Below, one piece after another: positions 45,046-56,040 of a stretch of DNA of 64,000 nt. The stretch's first letter is position 1. Each line of letters begins with the position of its first letter. Origin of the DNA: Bordetella sp. 02P26C-1 (GTDB lineage Bacteria > Pseudomonadota > Gammaproteobacteria > Burkholderiales > Burkholderiaceae_B); assembly GCF_009763255.1 (NCBI RefSeq), contig NZ_WSJB01000039.1, forward strand, positions 62,001-126,000, in the 5' to 3' direction. A model generated the notes under the pieces. The model searched no databases and was not told the DNA's origin. It worked only from the letters and a program-made list of their open reading frames with translations. Both the position numbers and the translations under genes were made by a program.

Positions 45046-46341
45046 ATGTCCCTCAAGCATACGTTCCATCGCAACGCTTTATCGTCGGTGTCGCGACGCC
45101 GGTGGCTCACCGCCGCGGCAAATGTCGCGGGCATGGCGGTGTTGCCCCTGCCGGCGATCGCCTCAACGAACGACGGTCAAGTCACTGATGCGCCGGCTAG
45201 CACGCATGGCGATGACCGCATCAGTTGCTGGGGAGAACATCAGGCGGGCATCGTTACGCCCCGGCCCGCGGCGGGCTTGGTCGCGTCATTCGATATTATC
45301 GCCACCGATCGTAAAGAACTCGAAAGACTGATGCGCGGACTATCCGCGCGAATCGCCTTTCTCACCCAAGGCGGCGAGGTCCCAAAGCTGGACCCGCGCT
45401 TGCCGCCCGCAGACTCCGGCATCCTGGGGCCCCTCGTGCAGCCGGATGCACTGACCATCACCGTGTCGGTAGGCGCCTCTTTATTCGACGATCGCTATGG
45501 TCTGGCGTCGCGCAAACCGCGATATCTGAAGCAGATGAGCGCGCATCCCAATGACGCGCTCGATGCCGCGCTCTGCCACGGCGATCTGTCTATCCAGTTC
45601 TGCGCGAATACGCCAGACACCAATATCCATGCGCTGCGCGACATCATCAAGCAGTTTCCCGATCTACTGGTGCTGCTGTGGAAACAAGAGGGCAGTGTTC
45701 CGCCCGTGGCGAAAAAGCCCGGCGTGCCACTGGAGAGCGCCAGAAATTTCCTGGGTTTTCGCGATGGCTCGGCGAACCCCGATGCCCACGATCAGGACGC
45801 GATGCGACGGCTCGTATGGGTGGGGCCGGACGACAACGAAGAACCCGCATGGACCTATGGCGGCACCTACCAAGTCGTGCGCATCATCCGTAATTTCGTC
45901 GAGCGCTGGGACCGCACGCCGCTGCAGGAACAACAGTCCATCATCGGCCGCAATCGCGATACCGGCGCGCCGCTCGATGGCGGGCCGACCGAGCACGATG
46001 TGCCTGACTACAGCCGCGATCCCGAAGGCAAACTCACGCCGCTAGATGCGCATATCCGGCTGGCGAATCCCCGCACCGCCGCGACCGAGCAGAACCTGAT
46101 TCTGCGCCGGCCGTTTAACTATTCCAATGGCGTGACAAAGTCCGGGCAGCTAGAGATGGGCCTGTTGTTCATCTGCTATCAGGCGAACCTGGAAAAAGGC
46201 TTCATCACCGTGCAAAAGCGCCTCGATGGTGAACCGCTAGAGGAATACATCAAGCCCATCGGCGGCGGTTTTTTCTATACCTTGCCAGGCATGCGCAATA
46301 AAGAAGACTGGCTGGGACGCGCGTTGCTGGCCGCCGCCTGA
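45046..46341 (+). CDS. efeB: EfeB Dyp-type heme peroxidase (deferrochelatase)
   Basis: Tat-exported heme peroxidase of 431 residues. The signal SVSRRRWLTAAANVAGMAVLPLP has the twin arginines. In the Dyp fold the GxxDG motif is GFRDG (237-241) and the proximal heme ligand is His336 in LDAHIRLANPRT. In E. coli, EfeB oxidises ferrous iron for EfeU and has been reported to release iron from heme. It follows efeO by 20 bp and precedes the M75-only gene. Confidence 0.94.
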   Translation: MSLKHTFHRNALSSVSRRRWLTAAANVAGMAVLPLPAIASTNDGQVTDAPASTHGDDRISCWGEHQAGIVTPRPAAGLVASFDIIATDRKELERLMRGLSARIAFLTQGGEVPKLDPRLPPADSGILGPLVQPDALTITVSVGASLFDDRYGLASRKPRYLKQMSAHPNDALDAALCHGDLSIQFCANTPDTNIHALRDIIKQFPDLLVLLWKQEGSVPPVAKKPGVPLESARNFLGFRDGSANPDAHDQDAMRRLVWVGPDDNEEPAWTYGGTYQVVRIIRNFVERWDRTPLQEQQSIIGRNRDTGAPLDGGPTEHDVPDYSRDPEGKLTPLDAHIRLANPRTAATEQNLILRRPFNYSNGVTKSGQLEMGLLFICYQANLEKGFITVQKRLDGEPLEEYIKPIGGGFFYTLPGMRNKEDWLGRALLAAA

Positions 46342-46376
46342 GTCCGCCTGAGTCATTAACCGTATAAGGAGATCCC

Positions 46377-47204
46377 GTGAACATTACTCGTCATCGATGG
46401 CTAGCTGCTGCCCTATCGTTGGGCGCGTGGACGCTGCAAGCGCATGCCGCCGTATCGCCGCTCGAACTCGTAGGTCCGGTTGCCGAGTACAAGCTTTATG
46501 TCAACGAGAACATAGACCAGTTCGTTACCGACACGCGCAAATTTACCGACGCCGTGAAAGCGGGGGATATTGAGCAGGCACGCGCCTTGTTCGCGCCCAC
46601 GCGGATGAGTTATGAGCGCATCGAGCCGGTCGCGGAGCTTTTTAGCGATCTGGATGCCTCCATCGACTCGCGCGCGGACGATCACGAAAAGGCCGAAAAA
46701 GACCCCGGTTTCGGCGGCTTCCATCGCATCGAGTATGCGCTATGGGAAGAAAAGAGCACCGACAATGTCAATGCCGTGGCCGATACATTGATGGCCGACG
46801 TTTTGGAGTTGCAAAAGCGTTTGGCCAACTTGACCTTTCCGCCCGAGAAAGTCGTGGGCGGCGCCGCCGTGTTGATGGAAGAAGTCGCCGCGACCAAGAT
46901 ATCTGGGGAAGAAGACCGCTACAGTCATACCGACCTGTGGGATTTCCAGGCTAATTTCGAGGGCGGCTATCGGATTTTTGAGTTTTTGCGTCCGCTGGTG
47001 CAGCGCGAGAATCCCGCTTTTGTGGAAAAGACCGACGCGAATTTCAAGACCGTCTTTGACACGCTCGCGAAGTACAAAACCGCCAATGGCGGCTTCGAAT
47101 CGTATGAAAAACTCAGCGACCGCGACCGCAAGGTCTTGGCGGGACGGGTGAATACGCTGGCCGAAGACCTGTCGCAGATGCGCGGGATGTTGGGGTTGGA
47201 TTAA
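46377..47204 (+). CDS. EfeM-like M75 (imelysin) periplasmic protein
   Basis: A 275-residue exported protein with signal peptide WLAAALSLGAWTLQAHA and no cupredoxin domain, the EfeM/Algp7 form. LELVGPVAEYKLYVNENIDQF opens the M75 domain; the metal-binding motif HRIE is intact at residues 116-119 (GGFHRIEYALWEE), and DLWDFQANFEGGYRIFEFL follows. It starts at GTG (46377) after AAGGAG. Likely complements the EfeO-like protein, whose M75 motif is degenerate. Last gene of the efe operon. Confidence 0.92.
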   Translation: MNITRHRWLAAALSLGAWTLQAHAAVSPLELVGPVAEYKLYVNENIDQFVTDTRKFTDAVKAGDIEQARALFAPTRMSYERIEPVAELFSDLDASIDSRADDHEKAEKDPGFGGFHRIEYALWEEKSTDNVNAVADTLMADVLELQKRLANLTFPPEKVVGGAAVLMEEVAATKISGEEDRYSHTDLWDFQANFEGGYRIFEFLRPLVQRENPAFVEKTDANFKTVFDTLAKYKTANGGFESYEKLSDRDRKVLAGRVNTLAEDLSQMRGMLGLD

Positions 47205-47332
47205 ATCGCTGGGTCTTGGCAGAGCGGACTCGCGCGGCGGGGGCGGCGCTGACGCTCGTCGGGCGTTTGAGTTTCGCCGCCGGAAATACCCCGGGTTTAT
47301 GAATAACTCGCTATTGCGGGTTAACATGGCGC

Positions 47333-47409
47333 TTGCTCCGGGGTGCACGCCAGTGCTGAGATTCAGACCCGCGAACTTGACCCGGTTCACACCGGCGTAA
47401 GAAGAGCAA
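47333..47409 (+). promoter_or_regulatory. TPP riboswitch (THI element)
   Basis: The RNA reads as a compact thiamine-pyrophosphate aptamer. P1: TTGCTC (47333-47338) with GAGCAA (47404-47409). P2: GGGT (47341-47344) with ACCC (47367-47370); P3: GCAC (45-48) with GTGC (53-56), loop of four. The pyrimidine-sensing CTGAGA lies at 47356-47361. GAACTTGA leads into P4/P5 (CCGG 47382-47385 with CCGG 47392-47395) and GGCGTAAGAAG matches the conserved 3' part. It stands 77 bp before the LuxE-like gene. Confidence 0.95.
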
Positions 47410-47420
47410 TGACTGGACCA

Positions 47421-47439
47421 GGTCGCGCCTCGCGCGACC
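47421..47439 (+). promoter_or_regulatory. Hairpin in the expression platform of the TPP riboswitch
   Basis: GGTCGCGC (47421-47428), loop CTC, GCGCGACC (47432-47439): perfect 8 bp stem. The 3' side CCGGG (47438-47442) can alternatively pair with CCCGG (47381-47385) of the aptamer P4, so it could switch. No T-run follows; a second weak stem GGGCT (47458-47462)/AGCCC (47481-47485) encloses the region before the ATG, suggesting translational control. Confidence 0.55.
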
Positions 47440-47485
47440 GGGCGCAGGCGGGCTTCGGGGCTTTGTATAGGACACTCGAGAGCCC

Positions 47486-48568
47486 ATGAATCCCATCGCA
47501 TCGCCAGAGGCGGATCTGCTCGCCTTTATTGCCCAAGACGGTTGTACTGACGATCAGTTCGATCAACTGGCGCTTCGCCTGTTTGCCTATCAATACCAGG
47601 CGAATGTGCCGTTCAAACGCTTTTGCCAGCATCGCGGCGTCACCCTGCGCAGTGTGCGATCGTGGCGTGATATACCCGCCGTACCCATTGATGCGTTCAA
47701 GGCGATGGAGCTGAGATGTGAGCCGCCCAAGGACACCGAGCGGGTTTTCATGACCAGCGGCACGACCCGCGCGGATGCGCGGGGAAGACATTTCCACCCA
47801 CGCTTGGATGTTTACGATCTGTCGATGACGCGCAATTTTGCTCGCCGCTTCATGCGCGGCGTCGAGCGTATGCCGATGGGAATTCTGTTCCCCGACGAAA
47901 CCGTGATGCCGAACTCCTCGCTGGCGCATTATCTGGCGTTGGCGAAATCGGTGTTTGGCACACCGGACAGCGAGTACTTTATGTCCGCTGACGGTATCGC
48001 GCTTGACGCGCTGTGGCGGCGTCTGGAGCAGGCCGAGGCCAGCGGCCAGCCGTATGCGCTGCTGGGTGCGAGCTACAGCCTCGTTCATGTGATGGATGCG
48101 CTGCGCGAGACCGGCCGCGTCTTTCGCCTGCCGCCGGGCAGTCGCATCCTCGATACCGGCGGCTATAAACGCCAGTCGCGCGAGTTGCCGCTAGACACCT
48201 TTTATGCCGAACTGACCGAGTTGTTCGGCGTGCCGGGCGAGCTTTGCATCAACATGTATGGGATGACGGAGCTGAGCACACAGTTCTACGATGATGGCAA
48301 CGCCGTGGTCCCCTCGGTGAAATCGGGACCGCACTGGATACGTTCGCGGCTCGTTGACCCGGCAACGGGTTTTACCGTGCCTGACGGTGAACGCGGCATA
48401 CTGGTGCATTGCGATCTGGCCAATTTCAACTCGGTCACGACGATATTGACCGAGGACGTGGGTGAGCCCGCGGAGGGCGGCTTTTTGCTGCTGGGCCGGG
48501 CGGCTGGCGCGCAAGCCAAAGGCTGCTCGCTGGCTGTCGAAGAATTCATCCATTCCAGCGTGGCATGA
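47486..48568 (+). CDS. LuxE-like acyl-protein synthetase under TPP riboswitch control
   Basis: ATP-dependent carboxylate-activating enzyme of the LuxE family (360 residues), related to adenylate-forming enzymes. Visible are the P-loop-like MTSGTTRADARG (TSGTT at 90-94), TGGYKRQSRELP, the adenylation motif YGMTE (258-262), and near the C-terminus GAQAKGCSLAVEEF with Cys347, the position of the acyl-accepting Cys364 in luminous bacteria. LuxE converts acid plus ATP to acyl-AMP and then acyl-enzyme for LuxC. Here it starts an operon with a LuxC-like protein and a ThiXYZ-type transporter and lacks LuxA, LuxB and LuxD, so its acid substrate is probably not a fatty acid for luciferase. The ATG lies 77 bp after the riboswitch. 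Confidence 0.85.
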   Translation: MNPIASPEADLLAFIAQDGCTDDQFDQLALRLFAYQYQANVPFKRFCQHRGVTLRSVRSWRDIPAVPIDAFKAMELRCEPPKDTERVFMTSGTTRADARGRHFHPRLDVYDLSMTRNFARRFMRGVERMPMGILFPDETVMPNSSLAHYLALAKSVFGTPDSEYFMSADGIALDALWRRLEQAEASGQPYALLGASYSLVHVMDALRETGRVFRLPPGSRILDTGGYKRQSRELPLDTFYAELTELFGVPGELCINMYGMTELSTQFYDDGNAVVPSVKSGPHWIRSRLVDPATGFTVPDGERGILVHCDLANFNSVTTILTEDVGEPAEGGFLLLGRAAGAQAKGCSLAVEEFIHSSVA

Positions 48569-50037
48569 CGATGGTGCGGATCGAAGCCGGTTATCTGCCC
48601 GGGCTGACAGCCGATGAGGTCAGCTGGCACAGCTTGCACTTTGGTTCAGGCGCTCGGCAGCTGGAGGTCGCCGTGCCGGTGTTGACGGCCGCGCAGATGC
48701 AGGCGTTGGCATTGCGGGTAAAACAAGCGAGCGCGCGTCATCTGCGCACGATGTCCGTATCGGAGATCATCGCCATTATCGACCGCGCGATCGCCCGTCT
48801 GCTCGATCGCGATGACCCGTATCGTCGGCAGGCCGACGCTTGGTTGCCGGTGGTCAGCGGCTTCGATGCCGAGATGGTCAGAGTCGGACTGACAGGGTTT
48901 TTTAAAACCTTTCGCGCGCCGCAGCTACATCGATTCGTCGCCGAAGACTTTACGAATCCCAAAGTCCTGGATGCTTTTCAACCCGCGCCCAAGGGCGGGG
49001 CGGTACGCGCCTATGGCCCGGCTCTGCTGGCGCATAGCTGGGCGGGAAATGTCCCCGCACTGGCATTGTGGAGCTTTGTTTGCGGCCTGCTGGTCAAAGC
49101 CGGCAATATTGGCAAGCTGCCTAGCGCCGAGCCGCTGTTCGCCGGTTGGTTCGCGCGCCTGCTGGCCGAGGTGCATCCTCCTTGGGCAGAGTGTTTCGCT
49201 GTCGTGTGGTGGCGGGGGGCGGGTGACGGCAGCGCGGACGCGTTGTATGCCCAGGCTGATACCGTCGTGGCTTATGGTGGCAATGAGGCACTGCAAGCGA
49301 TTCAACGGCGCCTGCCGGTGACGACGCGTTTCCTGCCGCATGGTCATAAGCTGGGATTTGGCGTGGTCAGTGCGTCGGCGCTGGACGCGTTGAAAGCGCC
49401 CGCGCTGGCCAGGCGTGCCGCCTGGGACGTGATGCGTTACGACCAGCAGGGCTGCTATTCACCGCAGGTCTTCTATGTGCAGCGCGGTGGGCAGGTCTCG
49501 CCGCGCGCGTTCGCAGACTATATCGCGGCGGAACTTGCCAATCTGCAGCAGCGCTATCCAAGGCGCGCGCTGGATCTGAACGAATCTTCCGCCGTGGCGA
49601 AATGGCGTCAGTCGATCGAATGGCGGATTCCTTTGGACAGTGGCCCGCAGAGCGCGGACTGTTTGATCGGTGAACCCGGAGCGCCGTGGAGTGTGGCGTA
49701 TGTGGATGGAGAACTTGCGCTGGCGCCCACCGGGTTGCAGCGTAGCATCGTCATCGCTGTTATAGATAGCTTGGACGATATCGCATCACGGCTGGCGGGC
49801 CGCGAGGTCTACCTGCAGACCGCGGGCGTGGCCGCAAGTCCGGCAGAGCTGTATCGGCTTGCGGAACAACTTGGCGCCGCCGGCGTGACGCGGATCAGCG
49901 CCATTGGATCGATGAGTGTGCCCGAAGCCGGCTGGCATCACGATGGCCGTTTCAATCTGTTGGATCTGGTACGCATGACCGAAATCGAGCAGTCGGCCGA
50001 AGCTGCGGCGGATCCGTTCGCGGAGTATGAGCCATGA
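48565..50037 (+). CDS. LuxC-like acyl reductase
   Basis: NADPH-dependent acyl reductase of the LuxC family (490 residues), producing an aldehyde from an acyl-thioester. The acyl-accepting Cys297 lies in DQQGCYSPQVFYVQ, the equivalent of the conserved catalytic cysteine of luminous bacteria; preceding MRYDQQG and following VSPRAFADYIAAEL are family features. N-terminal GYLPGLTADEVSWHSLHFGSG is less conserved. The ATG overlaps the LuxE-like stop (ATGA) and its own stop overlaps the ATPase start, so the products are translationally coupled. In the operon it would reduce the acid activated by LuxE-like protein; the TPP riboswitch ties this to thiamin metabolism. Confidence 0.85.
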   Translation: MTMVRIEAGYLPGLTADEVSWHSLHFGSGARQLEVAVPVLTAAQMQALALRVKQASARHLRTMSVSEIIAIIDRAIARLLDRDDPYRRQADAWLPVVSGFDAEMVRVGLTGFFKTFRAPQLHRFVAEDFTNPKVLDAFQPAPKGGAVRAYGPALLAHSWAGNVPALALWSFVCGLLVKAGNIGKLPSAEPLFAGWFARLLAEVHPPWAECFAVVWWRGAGDGSADALYAQADTVVAYGGNEALQAIQRRLPVTTRFLPHGHKLGFGVVSASALDALKAPALARRAAWDVMRYDQQGCYSPQVFYVQRGGQVSPRAFADYIAAELANLQQRYPRRALDLNESSAVAKWRQSIEWRIPLDSGPQSADCLIGEPGAPWSVAYVDGELALAPTGLQRSIVIAVIDSLDDIASRLAGREVYLQTAGVAASPAELYRLAEQLGAAGVTRISAIGSMSVPEAGWHHDGRFNLLDLVRMTEIEQSAEAAADPFAEYEP

Positions 50038-50792
50038 GCGCGGCCACTCCGTTTATCGATATCCATCGCGTGGTGTATGGCTATGCCCGCGACCACCGCA
50101 TCGTCGATGACGTGAGCTGGTCATTGCAGCAGGGCGGCTTTCACTGTCTGGTCGGTCGCAGCGGCTGCGGCAAGACCACCTTGCTCAAGCTGGTTGCCGG
50201 GTTGCTGACGCCGCAACAAGGTCATATTCGTCGACAGGACGGTCGCTCGGTGGTCCCCGGCCCGCAACTCGGCTATATGTTCCAGGCGCCCACCTTGCTG
50301 GACTGGCAGCGCGTACTGGATAACGTGCTGCTGCCCGTTTCGTTGCAGCGACGCCCAAGCCAGGCGGATTTCGCCCGTGCGCGCGAATTGCTGGCGATGC
50401 TGGGGCTCGCGAGTTATGAGCAACGTTATCCGCGCGAACTGTCGGGCGGCCAGCAAAGCCGCGTGGCACTGGCGCGGGCGCTGGTACTGCAGCCCGAGCT
50501 GCTGCTATTGGACGAGCCATTCGCCGCGCTCGATGCGATCACCCGTTATGAGCTGCAGGACGATTTGCTGCGTATGTGCCGCAAGCAGCGTACGACGGTG
50601 CTATTCGTCACGCATGACATTGGCGAGGCGGTGTACCTCGCCGATCGTGTGGGCGTGATGCACGCGGGTCGCCTGCTTGCCGATATCGCGGTATCGCTGC
50701 CTGTGCCGCGCACGCAGGCCTTGCGGCATGGCGTGGCATTCAACGGGATCTGCGCCGGGATCTACGACACGATGATGAGGGCAGGGCAATGA
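50034..50792 (+). CDS. ABC transporter ATP-binding protein, ThiZ-like
   Basis: ATPase of 252 residues of the nitrate/sulfonate/taurine type (SsuB/ThiZ). Walker A GRSGCGKTT (41-49), Q-loop MFQAPTLLDW, signature LSGGQQSRVALARAL, Walker B LLLLDEPFAALD, switch VTHDIGEAVYLAD. It overlaps the LuxC-like gene and the permease by 4 bp each. With a THI5-like binding protein and a TPP riboswitch it is best read as the energiser of a thiamin-precursor importer. Confidence 0.9.
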   Translation: MSAATPFIDIHRVVYGYARDHRIVDDVSWSLQQGGFHCLVGRSGCGKTTLLKLVAGLLTPQQGHIRRQDGRSVVPGPQLGYMFQAPTLLDWQRVLDNVLLPVSLQRRPSQADFARARELLAMLGLASYEQRYPRELSGGQQSRVALARALVLQPELLLLDEPFAALDAITRYELQDDLLRMCRKQRTTVLFVTHDIGEAVYLADRVGVMHAGRLLADIAVSLPVPRTQALRHGVAFNGICAGIYDTMMRAGQ

Positions 50793-51553
50793 AACAAGTG
50801 CTGAGGAACCGCACGCTTTCTATTGTGTTGTTGATTGTGCTGTTGGCTGGATGGGAATTCGCGGTGCGTCAAAGCGGTATTTCCGCCTTGGTCTTGCCGG
50901 CGCCGACCGCCGTGGCCACCACGTTATGGTCCACGCTTAGTAGCGGCTATCTCTGGCCGCATATCTCGGCCACGCTTGTTGAAATGTTGTTTGGGCTGGC
51001 AGCGGGCGGTGCGCTGGGAATGGCCATGGGCATCGCGCTGGCCGAGTCGGCGCTGCTCGACCGTGTGCTAAAGCCCTATGTGATTGTGAGTCAGGTCGTG
51101 CCCAAACTGGCGCTGGCGCCGCTTTTTGTATTGTGGTTCGGCTTTGGTATCTTGCCCACTGTGATCATGACAGCGTTGATCTGCTTTTTCCCTTTGATGG
51201 AAAACACGCTGACGAGCTTGCAGCAAGTCGATCCGCATCGCGTGCAACTGTTTCGCTTGCTGGGCGCGACGCGGATGCAGACGCTATTGCGATTGAAGCT
51301 GCCTGCCGGGCTGCCCGGCATTCTGGCCGGATGGCGCGTGGCGTTGGTCCTCGCACTGGTGGGCGCGGTAGTGGGCGAATTCATCAGCGCCAGTCGTGGT
51401 CTGGGCGCGGTCATTATTGCCGCGCAAGGCATGATGGATACGCCGCTCATGTTCGCCGCGCTTGTTGCCATCGCGGTGATCGGCCTGCTCAGCTATTACG
51501 CCATTCTGCTAATCGAACGTCAGTTGTTAAAGCCCTACGGCTATCAATCATGA
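50789..51553 (+). CDS. ABC transporter permease, ThiX-like
   Basis: Inner-membrane permease of 254 residues. The N-terminus has a membrane helix (TLSIVLLIVLLAGWEFAV), and SALVLPAPTAVATTLWSTL is the SsuC/TauC/ThiX signature. The coupling loop reads QVDPHRVQLFRLLGATRMQTLLRLKLPAGLPG, with GAVVGEFISASRGLG after it. It overlaps the ATPase gene by 4 bp. Substrate inferred from the riboswitch. Confidence 0.9.
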   Translation: MKQVLRNRTLSIVLLIVLLAGWEFAVRQSGISALVLPAPTAVATTLWSTLSSGYLWPHISATLVEMLFGLAAGGALGMAMGIALAESALLDRVLKPYVIVSQVVPKLALAPLFVLWFGFGILPTVIMTALICFFPLMENTLTSLQQVDPHRVQLFRLLGATRMQTLLRLKLPAGLPGILAGWRVALVLALVGAVVGEFISASRGLGAVIIAAQGMMDTPLMFAALVAIAVIGLLSYYAILLIERQLLKPYGYQS

Positions 51554-51573
51554 TTGACTCAAGGATATCCACC

Positions 51574-52596
51574 ATGCCTTTCTCTCCGTCGCGCCGTGCG
51601 CTGCTCGCGGCTTTCGCAGGGTTGGCCACGCTGCCCTACGCCCGGGCCGCGCGTGCGCAAACACCCGCGCAGGGCAAGATCACCGTGGCCGGCTGGAGCA
51701 AGCCGATTTCGGAAATCACCAACTTGCTGGTCGAGCCGGACAAAGGTTTCTTTAAGGAGCAGGGCCTGGAGCTCGTTTACCTGCCCGGCGCGGGCGGGGG
51801 CGACGCCATACGCAATTTGCTTAGCGGCCAGGCCGATGTGGCCTTCACCGATCCGGGGTCGTTTTTTATGGCGTTGGACAAGGGTGAGCCGCTGCGCGCG
51901 ATCTATGACATCTACCCGCAGAACGTCTTCAATGTCGTGTCGTTGAAGTCAAAAAACATCACTCGCCCCGAGGACCTGCGCGGCAAGCGCATTGGCGTCT
52001 ATAGTTTGTCCAGCGGCACGCGCCAGAATCTGCTTGTGCTGTTGCATCGCGCGGGCCTGACGGAATCGGATGTCGAGATCGTGGTCACCGGCGTGCTGAA
52101 TTTCGCGCCGCTCATACAAGGACAAGTGGACGCGCTAGCCGCCACGGACACCGGTTTGCTGGTGGGCCGTCGTCGCGGCCTGGGCGAGGTGAACGTCATC
52201 GAGGTGCGCGATCATCTGAATATTTCCAGCGATATGTTCGTCGTGCGGGAATCCACCTATCAGCAACAACAACCCTTGTTGCGTGCGTTTCTGAAAGCCT
52301 ATCGCGATAGCGCGGTCTGGATGATGGCGAATCCGGACGAGGCCGCCACGCTTGCCATGAAACGCGCCATCGACGGCACGGATCGTGACATGAACGCTGC
52401 CGTCATCCAACTGCGTAATGCCGCCGCGCAGGCGATTCCCGGGCCTGATGGTGCGCGACGTCCTTTGGGCGCATTCGATATGGCCGCTTGGCAGCAAGCC
52501 GCCAATGTCTATCACCAGTTGGGCCTGATACAGCGGCCTATCGATGTGTCTCGCGTGCTGGATATGCGATTGCTGCCGGAGGCTATCAATGAATGA
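51574..52596 (+). CDS. NMT1/THI5-like substrate-binding protein, ThiY-like
   Basis: Periplasmic binding protein of 340 residues with a Tat-like signal (SPSRRALLAAFAGLATLPYARA). The mature part shows LVEPDKGFFKEQGLELVYL and GGDAIRNLLSGQADVAFTDPG, the NMT1/THI5 pattern, and GKRIGVYSLSSGTRQNL for ligand contact. The ATG at 51574 is 8 nt after AAGGA; an in-frame ATG at 51550 overlapping the permease stop is an alternative. The TPP riboswitch suggests a thiamin-pyrimidine-like ligand. No tenA is present, so the ligand may differ from formylaminopyrimidine. Confidence 0.88.
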   Translation: MPFSPSRRALLAAFAGLATLPYARAARAQTPAQGKITVAGWSKPISEITNLLVEPDKGFFKEQGLELVYLPGAGGGDAIRNLLSGQADVAFTDPGSFFMALDKGEPLRAIYDIYPQNVFNVVSLKSKNITRPEDLRGKRIGVYSLSSGTRQNLLVLLHRAGLTESDVEIVVTGVLNFAPLIQGQVDALAATDTGLLVGRRRGLGEVNVIEVRDHLNISSDMFVVRESTYQQQQPLLRAFLKAYRDSAVWMMANPDEAATLAMKRAIDGTDRDMNAAVIQLRNAAAQAIPGPDGARRPLGAFDMAAWQQAANVYHQLGLIQRPIDVSRVLDMRLLPEAINE

Positions 52597-53368
52597 CACC
52601 CGTAAATTCGTTGGCAAGGTCGTCTTGGTCACCGGCGCCAGTCGTGGCATAGGCGCGGAAATCGCCCGAAGTTTCGCGGCCGAGGGCGCGACCGTCGTCG
52701 TCAACTACCTCAGCAATTCGGCCGCGGCCGAGGCGGTGGTGGCTCAATGTCAGGCCGCCGGCGGCGATGCTTGGTGCCTGCAGGCGGACGTCACATCGCC
52801 AGAGGCCGTGCAAGCCATGGTGAGCGCGATCGAGGACGAGGCAGGGCGCTTGGACATCGTCGTCAATAACGCCGTAAGACAATACCGTTTCGATCCACGT
52901 CGGCGCGCGACCTTCGATATGCTGAAGTGGGCCGACTACCAATCTCAGTACGATGGCTCTGTCGGCGCGGTCTTCAATGTCTGCCAGGCCGTGCTGCCGC
53001 ATTTCCGCCGGCGAGCGCAAGGTTGCATCATCAATATAGCCACCAATCTTGTCGAAAACCCTGTGGTGCCTTACCACGACTACACCACGGCGAAAGCCGC
53101 TCTGGTTGGCTTCAGCCGTAACCTCGCCACGGAGCTCGGGCCGCTAGGCATACGCGTTAACTGCGTGGCTCCAGGATTGGTCTATCCTACGGATGCGAGT
53201 CGCGATACGCAGGAATCGTTTCGCGATGCCCTCATCGCCGCGACGCCATTGCGACGCATTGCCAGGCCGCAAGACATCGCCGGGCCTGTCATGTTTCTTG
53301 CGTCGGACTGGAGTGGATTTATGACAGGCCAGGTGCTGTTCGTGGATGGGGGATTGGTGATGCGGTGA
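52589..53368 (+). CDS. Short-chain dehydrogenase/reductase (FabG-like) of the TPP-riboswitch operon
   Basis: NAD(P)H-dependent oxidoreductase of 259 residues. VVLVTGASRGIGAEIARSF is the cofactor motif, IVVNNAV the NNAG-equivalent, NIATN the catalytic Ser position (reading Thr in this protein), and HDYTTAKAALVG the YxxxK. The ATG at 52589 overlaps the binding-protein gene by 8 bp and follows CCGGAGG. As last gene of the operon it may reduce the aldehyde from the LuxC-like enzyme to an alcohol. Note that the usual active-site Ser is replaced in the visible IINIATNLVE segment. Confidence 0.88.
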   Translation: MNDTRKFVGKVVLVTGASRGIGAEIARSFAAEGATVVVNYLSNSAAAEAVVAQCQAAGGDAWCLQADVTSPEAVQAMVSAIEDEAGRLDIVVNNAVRQYRFDPRRRATFDMLKWADYQSQYDGSVGAVFNVCQAVLPHFRRRAQGCIINIATNLVENPVVPYHDYTTAKAALVGFSRNLATELGPLGIRVNCVAPGLVYPTDASRDTQESFRDALIAATPLRRIARPQDIAGPVMFLASDWSGFMTGQVLFVDGGLVMR

Positions 53369-53456: not shown

Positions 53457-54404
53457 ATGGATCTTGTCGCGCTTGAGTTTTTCTATGTGGTCGCCCAGGC
53501 TGGCAGCGTGTCGCGCGCCGCGTCCGATCTCGGGGTGGAGCAGTCGACGCTGACGCGGCATATCACGCGTCTGGAGCACAGCGTTGGCATGCGCCTGTTT
53601 CACCGATCCGGGCGGGGAATGGTGCTGACAGAAAAAGGCCAAGCCATGTTTCGCGCGGCCGAAGAGGTCGTGGGCGCGTTATCCCGTGCGCGCCGCACCG
53701 CCGCAGAGCTCGCGGCCTGCGGGCCGGCAAAGATCACGATTGCTTCGCAGCCTACGATCGCTAACGCCACGTTTGGCGCGATCGCTCATGCCCTGAAGCA
53801 CGAGTTTCCCAAATCGAAGCTCCGATTCGTCGAGGGCCTGGGGTCTCACATCATCGATATGCTGCAGGATGGCGACGTGGACGTGGCGTTGCTCTATCAA
53901 CCCACGCAATCCAAGCTTCTGGATTATGAAGAATTACTGCGCGAGGATTTGTACTGCATCTGTCCCGCGTCGAGCAGTGTTCCGCGTCGAGCCTTAAGTG
54001 GCGCTGACTTGCTGAGTCTGCCGATGGTGCTGCCCAGTACCGTGCATGGGCTGAAGACCTGGCTGGAAGCGCTGGCTCAGGAGATCGGCATAGCACCGAA
54101 CATTGCCATCGAATGTGATGGCTCCACGCATTTGATGAGCCGTCTCGTGCAGCAGAACCATGGCTATACGATTCTGCCGATGGCGGCCGTGAAGAACGAA
54201 CTCGCCGCGGGGACGATCAAGGCCGTCAAGATCGATCATCCCCGCGCCACGCGCACGGTGGTCCTGGCGACCCCGCGCGGTCGTGCTCAAGTCGATAGCT
54301 ATTGGAAAGTCGCGCATCTCATCAAGCAGACCGTCGCGCAATTGGTGCAGTCGGGCCAGTGGCCCAACGTGCAGCCTACACCGGGATCCGCTTGTCCGGT
54401 GTGA
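53457..54404 (+). CDS. LysR-family transcriptional regulator
   Basis: Regulator of 315 residues with helix-turn-helix MDLVALEFFYVVAQAGSVSR and STLTRHITRLEHSVGMRLFHR. It has an effector-binding domain (KITIASQPTIANATFGAIAH). It lies 88 bp after the SDR on the same strand, and convergent with the ThDP enzyme, whose 3' end it overlaps by 29 bp. Which genes it controls is unclear; the second Bug gene or the ThDP enzyme are candidates. Confidence 0.92.
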   Translation: MDLVALEFFYVVAQAGSVSRAASDLGVEQSTLTRHITRLEHSVGMRLFHRSGRGMVLTEKGQAMFRAAEEVVGALSRARRTAAELAACGPAKITIASQPTIANATFGAIAHALKHEFPKSKLRFVEGLGSHIIDMLQDGDVDVALLYQPTQSKLLDYEELLREDLYCICPASSSVPRRALSGADLLSLPMVLPSTVHGLKTWLEALAQEIGIAPNIAIECDGSTHLMSRLVQQNHGYTILPMAAVKNELAAGTIKAVKIDHPRATRTVVLATPRGRAQVDSYWKVAHLIKQTVAQLVQSGQWPNVQPTPGSACPV

Positions 54405-56040
54405 TTTGAGCGGGGTCGGTGACCAACTCGATCAGCGCCACGCCACCGGCGTCGCGGGCGCGCTGCAACGCGGCGGGGAAATCGGCTTCGTTTTCCACTC
54501 GTTCGCCATGTGCGCCCAATGACCGCGCCAGGGCGACATAGTCAGAACCATGAATCCGGGTGCCCGACACCCGGCCCGGGTAGTCGCGTTCCTGATGCAT
54601 GCGAATGGTGCCGTACATTCCGTTGTTGACTACCAGAATGATGAGCGACGCGCCGAATTCGATGGCGGTGGCGATTTCTTGCGGGTACATCATAAAGCAG
54701 CCATCGCCGGCCACGCATACTACTTGACGTTGTCCCTTGTAGCGCAGCGCCGCGGCAACGGCGGCCGGTAGTCCATATCCCATCGCGCCGCAGGTCGTTG
54801 CCAGCTCGGTGCGCGGCTGACGATAACGATAGTAGCGATGCAGCCATACCGCATAGTTGCCCGCGCCATTGGTCATGATCGTATCGTCAGGCAGCGCATC
54901 GTTCAGATGCAGAATCACCTTTGCCAGGTCTACGCCGTTTGGACGCACCTCGGTCTGGCGACGAGACGTAAAGGTGACAAAAGCCTCGCGCGCCTTCGCG
55001 GTCCGTTGCGCCCAAACCGGTGCGCCCGGCGCGGGTAGGGCAGTCAGCGCGCGCAGCGCCGCCTCGGCGGTGACGGGGGCGGCAATATCCGGCCGATACA
55101 CACGTCCCAACTCTTCCGCGGATGCATGCAGATGAATCAGCTTCTGGGCGGGCGTAGGCAACTCCAGCAACGTGAAGCCGTCGGTGGGCACATCGCCCAG
55201 GCGCGTGCCGATTGCAAGGATCAGATCCGATTCTTGCACTAGCGCCCGCAACGCCGGACTCATGCCCAGGCTCATATGGCCCACGTATTGCGGGTCTTCA
55301 TTATCGAGCAGGTCTTGACGGCGGAACGCGCTGGCCACCGGTAAATTCCAGCTCGACGCAAACGCGCGCAAATCCGCGCACGCGGCGGCTGACCAGTTGC
55401 TGCCGCCCACGATCAACAAAGGACGTTCGGCCGCGCTAAGCGCGTCGCCAATCTGGTCGCGCGTGGATGCCGCCAGCTCCGGCAGCTGTAGCGTCATCGG
55501 CGCGCAATCGGGCGTCGCGATGACTTCCGTCAGCATGTCCTCCGGCAACGACACGACCACCGGTCCGGGACGCCCGGACACCGCGACGTTGAAGGCGCGC
55601 GCCAGCAATTCGGGCACGCGATCCGCTTCATTGATCTCGATCACGAGTTTTGCGATGCTGCCAAAAAACTGCTGATAGTCCACTTCCTGAAACGCATCGC
55701 GGCCGCGATCGTGACGGGCGATCTGCCCAACGAACAGAATCATCGGCGTCGAATCTTGTTGCGCGATATGCAGGCCGATGCTGGCATGCGTGGCGCCCGG
55801 GCCGCGGGTGACCATGCAGATACCTGGCTTGCCAGTCAGCTTGCCGTCCGCTTCGGCCATATTGGCCGCGGCGCCTTCGTGTTTGGTGACGATCAGTTCG
55901 ATCTGGTCTTCAACATCCTTTAGGGCGTCGAGAACTTCCAGATAGCTTTCACCGGGAACACAGAAGACGCGCTCAACACCGTGAGCGACAAGGGAGGAGA
56001 CCAGGGCGCGGCCGGCGGTTCGTTGCGATGGAGAACTCAT
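54376..56040 (-). CDS. ThDP-dependent acetolactate-synthase-like enzyme
   Basis: A 554-residue enzyme with the three-domain pyruvate-oxidase/acetolactate-synthase fold. N-terminal PYR domain: VFCVPGESYLEVLDAL with catalytic Glu in VTKHEGAAANMAEADG. Central domain PLLIVGGSNW. C-terminal PP domain: VAGDGCFMMYPQEIATAI...VVNN, the GDG-x25-NN thiamin-diphosphate motif. No regulatory subunit gene is nearby, so it may be catabolic (oxalyl, benzoylformate or sulfoacetaldehyde-like enzymes are alternatives). The ATG at 56040 is used; the frame to 56229 contains unsupported sequence. Divergent from the Bug gene. Confidence 0.88.
   Translation of the reverse strand: MSSPSQRTAGRALVSSLVAHGVERVFCVPGESYLEVLDALKDVEDQIELIVTKHEGAAANMAEADGKLTGKPGICMVTRGPGATHASIGLHIAQQDSTPMILFVGQIARHDRGRDAFQEVDYQQFFGSIAKLVIEINEADRVPELLARAFNVAVSGRPGPVVVSLPEDMLTEVIATPDCAPMTLQLPELAASTRDQIGDALSAAERPLLIVGGSNWSAAACADLRAFASSWNLPVASAFRRQDLLDNEDPQYVGHMSLGMSPALRALVQESDLILAIGTRLGDVPTDGFTLLELPTPAQKLIHLHASAEELGRVYRPDIAAPVTAEAALRALTALPAPGAPVWAQRTAKAREAFVTFTSRRQTEVRPNGVDLAKVILHLNDALPDDTIMTNGAGNYAVWLHRYYRYRQPRTELATTCGAMGYGLPAAVAAALRYKGQRQVVCVAGDGCFMMYPQEIATAIEFGASLIILVVNNGMYGTIRMHQERDYPGRVSGTRIHGSDYVALARSLGAHGERVENEADFPAALQRARDAGGVALIELVTDPAQITPDKRIPV

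Follow-up and report, generated by a model that had tools for sequence, protein, structure and literature searches.

A TPP-riboswitch operon with LuxE/LuxC-like enzymes in Bordetella: a candidate system for reductive salvage of an oxidised thiamin pyrimidine

Related systems and the Bordetella operon

In the ThiY-TenA salvage of N-formyl-4-amino-5-aminomethyl-2-methylpyrimidine (FAMP), an ATP-binding cassette (ABC) importer (ThiXYZ) with an NMT1/THI5-like binding protein is controlled by thiamin pyrophosphate (TPP) and works together with hydrolases. Here we describe an operon from Bordetella sp. 02P26C-1, located in a stretch of 64,000 nucleotides (contig NZ_WSJB01000039.1, positions 62,001 to 126,000; hereafter the window), in which an importer of the same type under a TPP riboswitch is accompanied instead by a LuxE-like acyl-protein synthetase, a LuxC-like acyl reductase and a short-chain dehydrogenase/reductase (SDR); the operon contains neither tenA nor an amidohydrolase gene. 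We consider it probable that this is a TPP-repressed operon for the reductive salvage of an oxidised pyrimidine half of vitamin B1.

The enzyme pair resembles the luxC/luxE fatty acid reductase of luminous bacteria, for which a LuxC-LuxE complex has been solved (7XC6). Both window proteins belong to the same Pfam families, LuxE adjoins LuxC, and each aligns with its counterpart chain including the cysteines (LuxE, E 2.3e-21; LuxC, E 5.9e-14). The SGTT and MYG-TE motifs and Cys347 of LuxE were invariant in 16 aligned rows, as was Cys297 of LuxC in 13. We take Cys347 to be the acyl-accepting residue and Cys297 to be the catalytic residue. The window pair differs from the luminous enzymes by its upstream TPP aptamer and by scores far below the cut-offs of the long-chain equivalog models (NF052244 for LuxE, 74.8 bits against 550; NF052251 for LuxC, 71.8 bits against 750). 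It also lacks the company of a bioluminescence operon, in which luxA, luxB and luxD stand beside luxC and luxE: none of these three turned up in a scan limited to ten proteins encoded by the operon and its neighbourhood, in line with a preliminary description of the locus that had seen no luciferase or LuxD genes.

The SDR likewise has a described relative, since Rodionov and colleagues reportedly placed a homolog of 3-oxoacyl-acyl carrier protein (ACP) reductase, oarX, in a THI-element regulon in 2002, as an SDR alone. The window SDR passes the equivalog cut-off of NF006393, a model named 3-oxoacyl-ACP reductase, and its YxxxK motif was present in 16/16 aligned rows; like the oarX type it stands under a TPP aptamer, and the window adds the link to LuxE/LuxC. 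Scores against NF006393 were 296.5 for the SDR of Niallia and 276.4, below the cut-off of 292, for that of Lactiplantibacillus. Matches to the SDR at E <= 1e-55 were found in 30 plasmid records, 27 with LuxE and three without; the LuxE-free records comprised a Gemmobacter row (TPP-thiM-thiE-thiD-SDR), an Exiguobacterium TPP-SDR unit and a Mesobacillus TPP riboswitch-SDR unit (L117 6749-9136). As the SDR is found under TPP aptamers with or without LuxE/LuxC, we assign this type to the thiamin regulon, in agreement with the 3-oxoacyl-ACP-reductase homolog that the preliminary description mentions for such regulons; these contexts fit an aldehyde reductase catalysing the last, shared step. In Mesobacillus the SDR is followed by a gene for an LLM-class flavin-dependent oxidoreductase, possibly a further thiamin-related oxidoreductase.

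The transporter genes, encoding an NMT1/THI5-like binding protein, a permease and an ATPase under a THI element, make up the gene set of ThiXYZ. The binding protein, modelled with AlphaFold (mean pLDDT 85.2), had the thiamin-bound 4NMY (22% identity) and the FAMP-binding ThiY 3IX1 (19%) as its top fold matches, followed by 3QSL, the sulfonate-binding SsuA and Thi5. The N-terminus, judged by eye, looks like an export signal, suggesting that the protein is probably exported and speaking against a role as a Thi5-like enzyme.

TPP-controlled vitamer salvage operons are thus already known, and what the window adds is a proposed reductive route within one. The literature, searched by title, abstract opening and passages, gave no account linking LuxE/LuxC to a thiamin regulon, with supplementary tables (e.g. 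those of PMC3766115) and RegPrecise outside that search; the main text of PMC3766115, as distinct from its supplement, has no word beginning with lux, and in the passages of PMC3219970 that mention lux genes they serve as reporters.

Conservation and spread of the cassette

To survey the operon in relatives, a pattern scan for LuxE was run over 84,980 species genomes, returning 300 stretches, of which the best 80 were fetched. All six genes were present in the same order and on the same strand in 73/80 loci, and contig ends cut the other seven. A covariance model built from 17 aptamers, seven of them from the window and six of the 80 loci, found a TPP aptamer upstream of luxE in the window and in 80/80 loci, and elsewhere in 1.34 megabases gave just one further, weak match (15.2 bits). 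A plain aptamer pattern detected the element within 420 nucleotides in 58/80 loci; the 22 that it missed had either an intervening thiD (13) or longer aptamers (nine). The recurrence of the riboswitch with these genes in 80/80 relatives excludes a chance adjacency.

Genome sets drawn evenly from the same family and from the phylum yielded 33 carriers (28/200 in the family and 6/398 in the phylum set, with G000 in both), and within the host genus this LuxE type was present in 4/9 genomes. In 30/33 carriers a TPP match lay about 70-205 nucleotides upstream of the LuxE match on the same strand, as read from the coordinates. The association with THI elements expected from the preliminary description was therefore found in relatives, and support was also gained for control by a TPP riboswitch, for the grouping of LuxE/LuxC with both an SDR and an importer of ThiXYZ type, and for the proposed role in thiamin salvage. 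Three cassettes (L103, L104, L105) had no TPP aptamer detectable within the fetched stretch, and three others (L106, L111, L114) had a permease and a binding protein while lacking an ATPase match in the interval from luxC to the permease gene.

We also searched 72,556 plasmid records by tblastn; 34 had a LuxE match and eight were inspected. LuxE, LuxC and SDR occurred together in all eight, the Pseudomonas silvicola copy being in pieces, and seven of the eight had a TPP aptamer above the gathering score, that of the Priestia plasmid reaching 49 bits. The three enzymes under TPP aptamers thus extend to gammaproteobacteria, alphaproteobacteria and Bacillota. The Azospirillum and Priestia plasmids carry the same ABC transporter genes as the window. 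In two Lactobacillaceae plasmids and in Niallia an NCS2 nucleobase-type permease replaces the ABC transporter, as assigned by PF00860 for the Lactiplantibacillus copy and by homology for the other two; the Niallia operon also holds ThiW (TIGR02359). In Niallia taxi a tandem pair of TPP aptamers (L089 5697-5993) precedes thiW, the NCS2 permease and LuxE-LuxC-SDR, and in Azospirillum lipoferum the gene after the SDR (L091 13965-14657) carries the annotation phosphoglycolate phosphatase.

A LuxE tree (41 rows, rooted at the midpoint, with eight thiD-bearing loci included) set Lactiplantibacillus and Niallia apart from the rest (100/100) and put Priestia on the proteobacterial side at an unresolved position, while Thauera (Zoogloeaceae) sat among Comamonadaceae and Alcaligenaceae rows. 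Four identical protein accessions were shared by the plasmids of Lactiplantibacillus plantarum (L086 1624-6321) and Levilactobacillus brevis (L087 3181-7878), indicating recent transfer. Taken together, these comparisons suggest that the cassette has likely moved between lineages.

The thiamin moiety and the proposed route

The gene order of relatives points to the pyrimidine. In 13/80 loci thiD, encoding the kinase of 4-amino-5-hydroxymethyl-2-methylpyrimidine (HMP), lies between the riboswitch and luxE, and two of the 13 proteins, when tested, scored 308.7 and 318.1 bits with the NCBIfam model of HMP phosphate kinase (cut-off 204.95). Four of these contigs stop before or just after the SDR; in all nine that run on, thiamin genes come next on the same strand. 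Behind the SDR, thiE was found in seven loci (L070, L072, L073, L077, L078, L082, L085), of which L078 also matched thiG, past thiE and on the opposite strand; thiO-thiS-thiG-thiE was found in L064; and thiO-thiS-thiG, up to the contig end, in L069. Operons of the thiCOSGE type contain thiC. The row in L064 resembles them in having thiO, thiS, thiG and thiE behind one TPP element, and differs in carrying thiD and the cassette at the place expected for thiC; neither thiC nor thiM was detected by tblastn in 109 loci. Judged by gene order, the thiD-bearing loci would be thiamin operons in which the cassette occupies a place that thiC might take.

In the LuxE tree the group of the window was nested within a clade of 20 rows with 98/95 support, to which all eight of the included thiD-bearing loci also belong, so that the window operon may be derived from an extended, thiD-bearing one. 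Variovorax loci without thiD retain a short piece of it ahead of luxE (L061 7581-7940) and, following the SDR, a short remnant resembling thiO (L063 13842-13928); we regard both as relics of an ancestral thiamin operon that was larger.

The gene complement of the 33 carriers bears on what product could be used. ThiD scored over its cut-off in 32/33, the miss (G185) being a genome 86% complete, and ThiG did so in 33/33. ThiM, the thiazole kinase, was over its cut-off in 5/33, and thiamin pyrophosphokinase (TPK) and ThiK in none, ThiK having weaker matches in 14 carriers with G576 alone clear (232.7 bits). The host genome contains ThiC, ThiD and ThiG, has no match to ThiM or TPK and matches the ThiK model at 20 bits. 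Since the carriers mostly lack kinases for hydroxyethylthiazole (HET) or thiamin and yet have ThiD, HMP would be a usable product. Among the three acids put forward in the preliminary description, the pyrimidine carboxylate therefore appears to fit these genomes best, and drew further support from the operons with thiD, thiE and thiO-thiS-thiG; thiazole-acetate and thiamin-acetate are disfavoured by the same profiles. TenA (PF03070) was over its cut-off in 17/33 carriers (nine of them above 140 bits), with a weak match in the host (38.9 bits) and no copy in the operon, and a general partnership with TenA was rejected. Nor did the carriers in the family support loss of thiC as an explanation for the presence of the cassette.

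These observations suggest a route in which we infer the substrate, the order of reactions and the cofactors. At low TPP the riboswitch would permit expression of the operon, and the binding protein and ABC transporter would take up 4-amino-2-methylpyrimidine-5-carboxylate or a closely related compound. LuxE would activate the acid with ATP and hold it as a protein thioester on Cys347, LuxC would use NAD(P)H to reduce this intermediate to an aldehyde, from which the SDR would form the alcohol HMP. Phosphorylation of HMP to its pyrophosphate would fall to ThiD, whose gene lies outside the operon in the host genome and inside it in Ramlibacter-type relatives, and ThiE would couple the pyrimidine product to the thiazole. 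We prefer this chain, as no simpler one would give every conserved gene a role. By its title, Neal and Pearson 1964 (cited in PMC7780320) concerns 4-amino-2-methylpyrimidine-5-carboxylate as a thiamine metabolite of rat urine, and the list of pyrimidine vitamers in a passage of a 2024 study (PMC10881298) names HMP, the aminomethyl compound AmMP and FAMP and no pyrimidine acid. A bolder proposal, on which we are evenly divided, is that pyrimidine-5-carboxylate is a natural, overlooked vitamer, which a mobile LuxE-LuxC-SDR cassette, common to proteobacteria and Bacillota and with interchangeable importers, reduces to HMP, replacing ThiC in Ramlibacter-type operons (thiD-luxE-luxC-ABC-SDR-thiO-thiS-thiG-thiE).

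Several observations weigh against salvage of the pyrimidine acid. A thiC match was found in 25/28 family carriers (counting a fragment in G185), the three without one being genomes 85-86% complete. Three of the 33 carriers (G076, G169, G185) had no TPP aptamer near the cassette, even in a lax scan, and in Pantoea and Pseudomonas the TPP-controlled unit contains no transporter. The Bacillota copies with the NCS2 permease are distant (LuxE 38-43% and LuxC 35-36% identity), and the nearest other plasmid relative of this permease adjoins an 8-oxoguanine deaminase, so that the permease need not transport a pyrimidine. As for the binding protein, its best fold match binds thiamin itself and SsuA outranks Thi5. 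Lastly, the LuxE and LuxC of luminous bacteria use long-chain acyl groups.

Among other explanations, the one that survives best keeps the pyrimidine arm and changes the compound: the acid might have a longer side chain or be an N-linked conjugate, or the LuxE/LuxC aldehyde might aid a ThiC-free synthesis of HMP. The presence of thiD and thiE, the NCS2 permease and the ThiY-like fold all indicate the pyrimidine arm and no single compound; however, a plain acid-to-alcohol route would need exactly these three activities and end at the substrate of ThiD, and we regard these variants as rather unlikely. Reduction of 4-methylthiazole-5-acetate to HET, for which the same chemistry would work, is a much poorer prospect. 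It would account for ThiW in the Niallia operon, which Pfam calls a thiamine-precursor transporter and which we take for a transporter of thiazole precursors, and for the SDR behind thiM-thiE-thiD in Gemmobacter, but in the 28/33 carriers with ThiM below the cut-off, as in the host genome with no ThiM match, HET would meet no known kinase, and the 13 extended operons hold thiD, not thiM. Import of thiamin-acetic acid, an oxidised thiamin, and its reduction to thiamin would suit the thiamin-bound 4NMY as best fold; it is nonetheless highly improbable, as thiamin so formed would not be usable through TPK or ThiK, neither over its cut-off in any carrier, and thiD and thiE would be superfluous. 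That ordinary fatty-aldehyde genes, as Pfam membership of LuxE and LuxC might suggest, came by chance to lie beside a thiamin transporter is scarcely credible in view of the very low long-chain scores, the cluster without luxA, luxB or luxD and an aptamer association that spans phyla.

Locus layout, leader and implications

The six genes lie on one strand (Table 1), with luxE starting 65 bases past the end of the aptamer. Matches to Rfam and Pfam models confirmed the clear TPP aptamer ahead of six overlapping or nearly overlapping genes given in the preliminary description, except that the aptamer starts 4 nucleotides before the position 47333 given there. Neighbouring genes overlap by 4 nucleotides, and the binding protein and SDR genes by 8; the overlap of the permease and binding protein genes is lost if the latter starts at its ATG at 51574. 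The SDR start in the table is likelier than that at 52544 given by the open reading frame finder. The short overlaps make a single transcript of the six genes likely.

Table 1. Features of the riboswitch-led operon (window coordinates)
Feature	Position	Strand	Basis
TPP riboswitch aptamer	47329..47420	+	Rfam RF00059, 57.6 bits vs gathering 54.3
Putative expression platform, hairpin over luxE ribosome-binding region	47421..47485	+	predicted fold
LuxE-like acyl-protein synthetase	47486..48568	+	PF04443, 71.1 bits vs cut-off 24.9
LuxC-like acyl reductase	48565..50037	+	PF05893, 266.1 bits vs cut-off 21
ABC transporter ATPase, ThiZ-like	50034..50792	+	PF00005, 111.2 bits
ABC transporter permease, ThiX-like	50789..51553	+	PF00528, 100.5 bits
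NMT1/THI5-like binding protein, ThiY-like	51550 (or ATG 51574)..52596	+	PF09084, 175.8 bits
SDR oxidoreductase	52589..53368	+	PF13561; NF006393, 301.4 bits vs cut-off 292

Apart from the aptamer, nothing in the window matched an Rfam model at its gathering threshold. A genome-wide search for TPP elements (E <= 0.001; 150 of 202 candidates scored) found one more in the host, a sub-gathering match of 46.5 bits ahead of thiC, and no others. Between aptamer and luxE a CTTCGG-like segment is conserved, and in predicted folds it base-pairs with the sequence preceding the start codon. Across 29 related leaders, from the window plus 28 of the 80 fetched loci, the luxE ribosome-binding region was on average 69% paired, compared with 46% in base-shuffled leaders; the leader as a whole folded no better than its shuffles (z -1.05). 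Pattern searches found no terminator-like site in the leader and no sigma-70-like promoter site on the plus strand. A hairpin covering the ribosome-binding region, together with the lack of a terminator-like site, makes translational control likely, and from the predicted folds we infer that the riboswitch would act by freeing or covering the luxE ribosome-binding site.

Around the operon, a LysR regulator gene (53457-54404, plus strand) lies directly downstream of the SDR gene, and its end is overlapped by a gene for a TPP-dependent enzyme of the PRK08199 subfamily (54376-56040, minus strand). Just upstream (45046-47204, plus strand) are genes for a DyP-type peroxidase and an imelysin (Peptidase_M75), which presumably resemble an iron-uptake pair.

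If the proposed salvage is correct, an oxidised pyrimidine would be a salvaged nutrient, and predictions of thiamin metabolism built on thiC and tenA would overlook a route to the vitamin. The plasmid records label cassette genes as long-chain fatty acid-CoA ligase and acyl-CoA reductase, annotations that would then be misnomers, and enzymes known from bioluminescence would have a role in vitamin metabolism.

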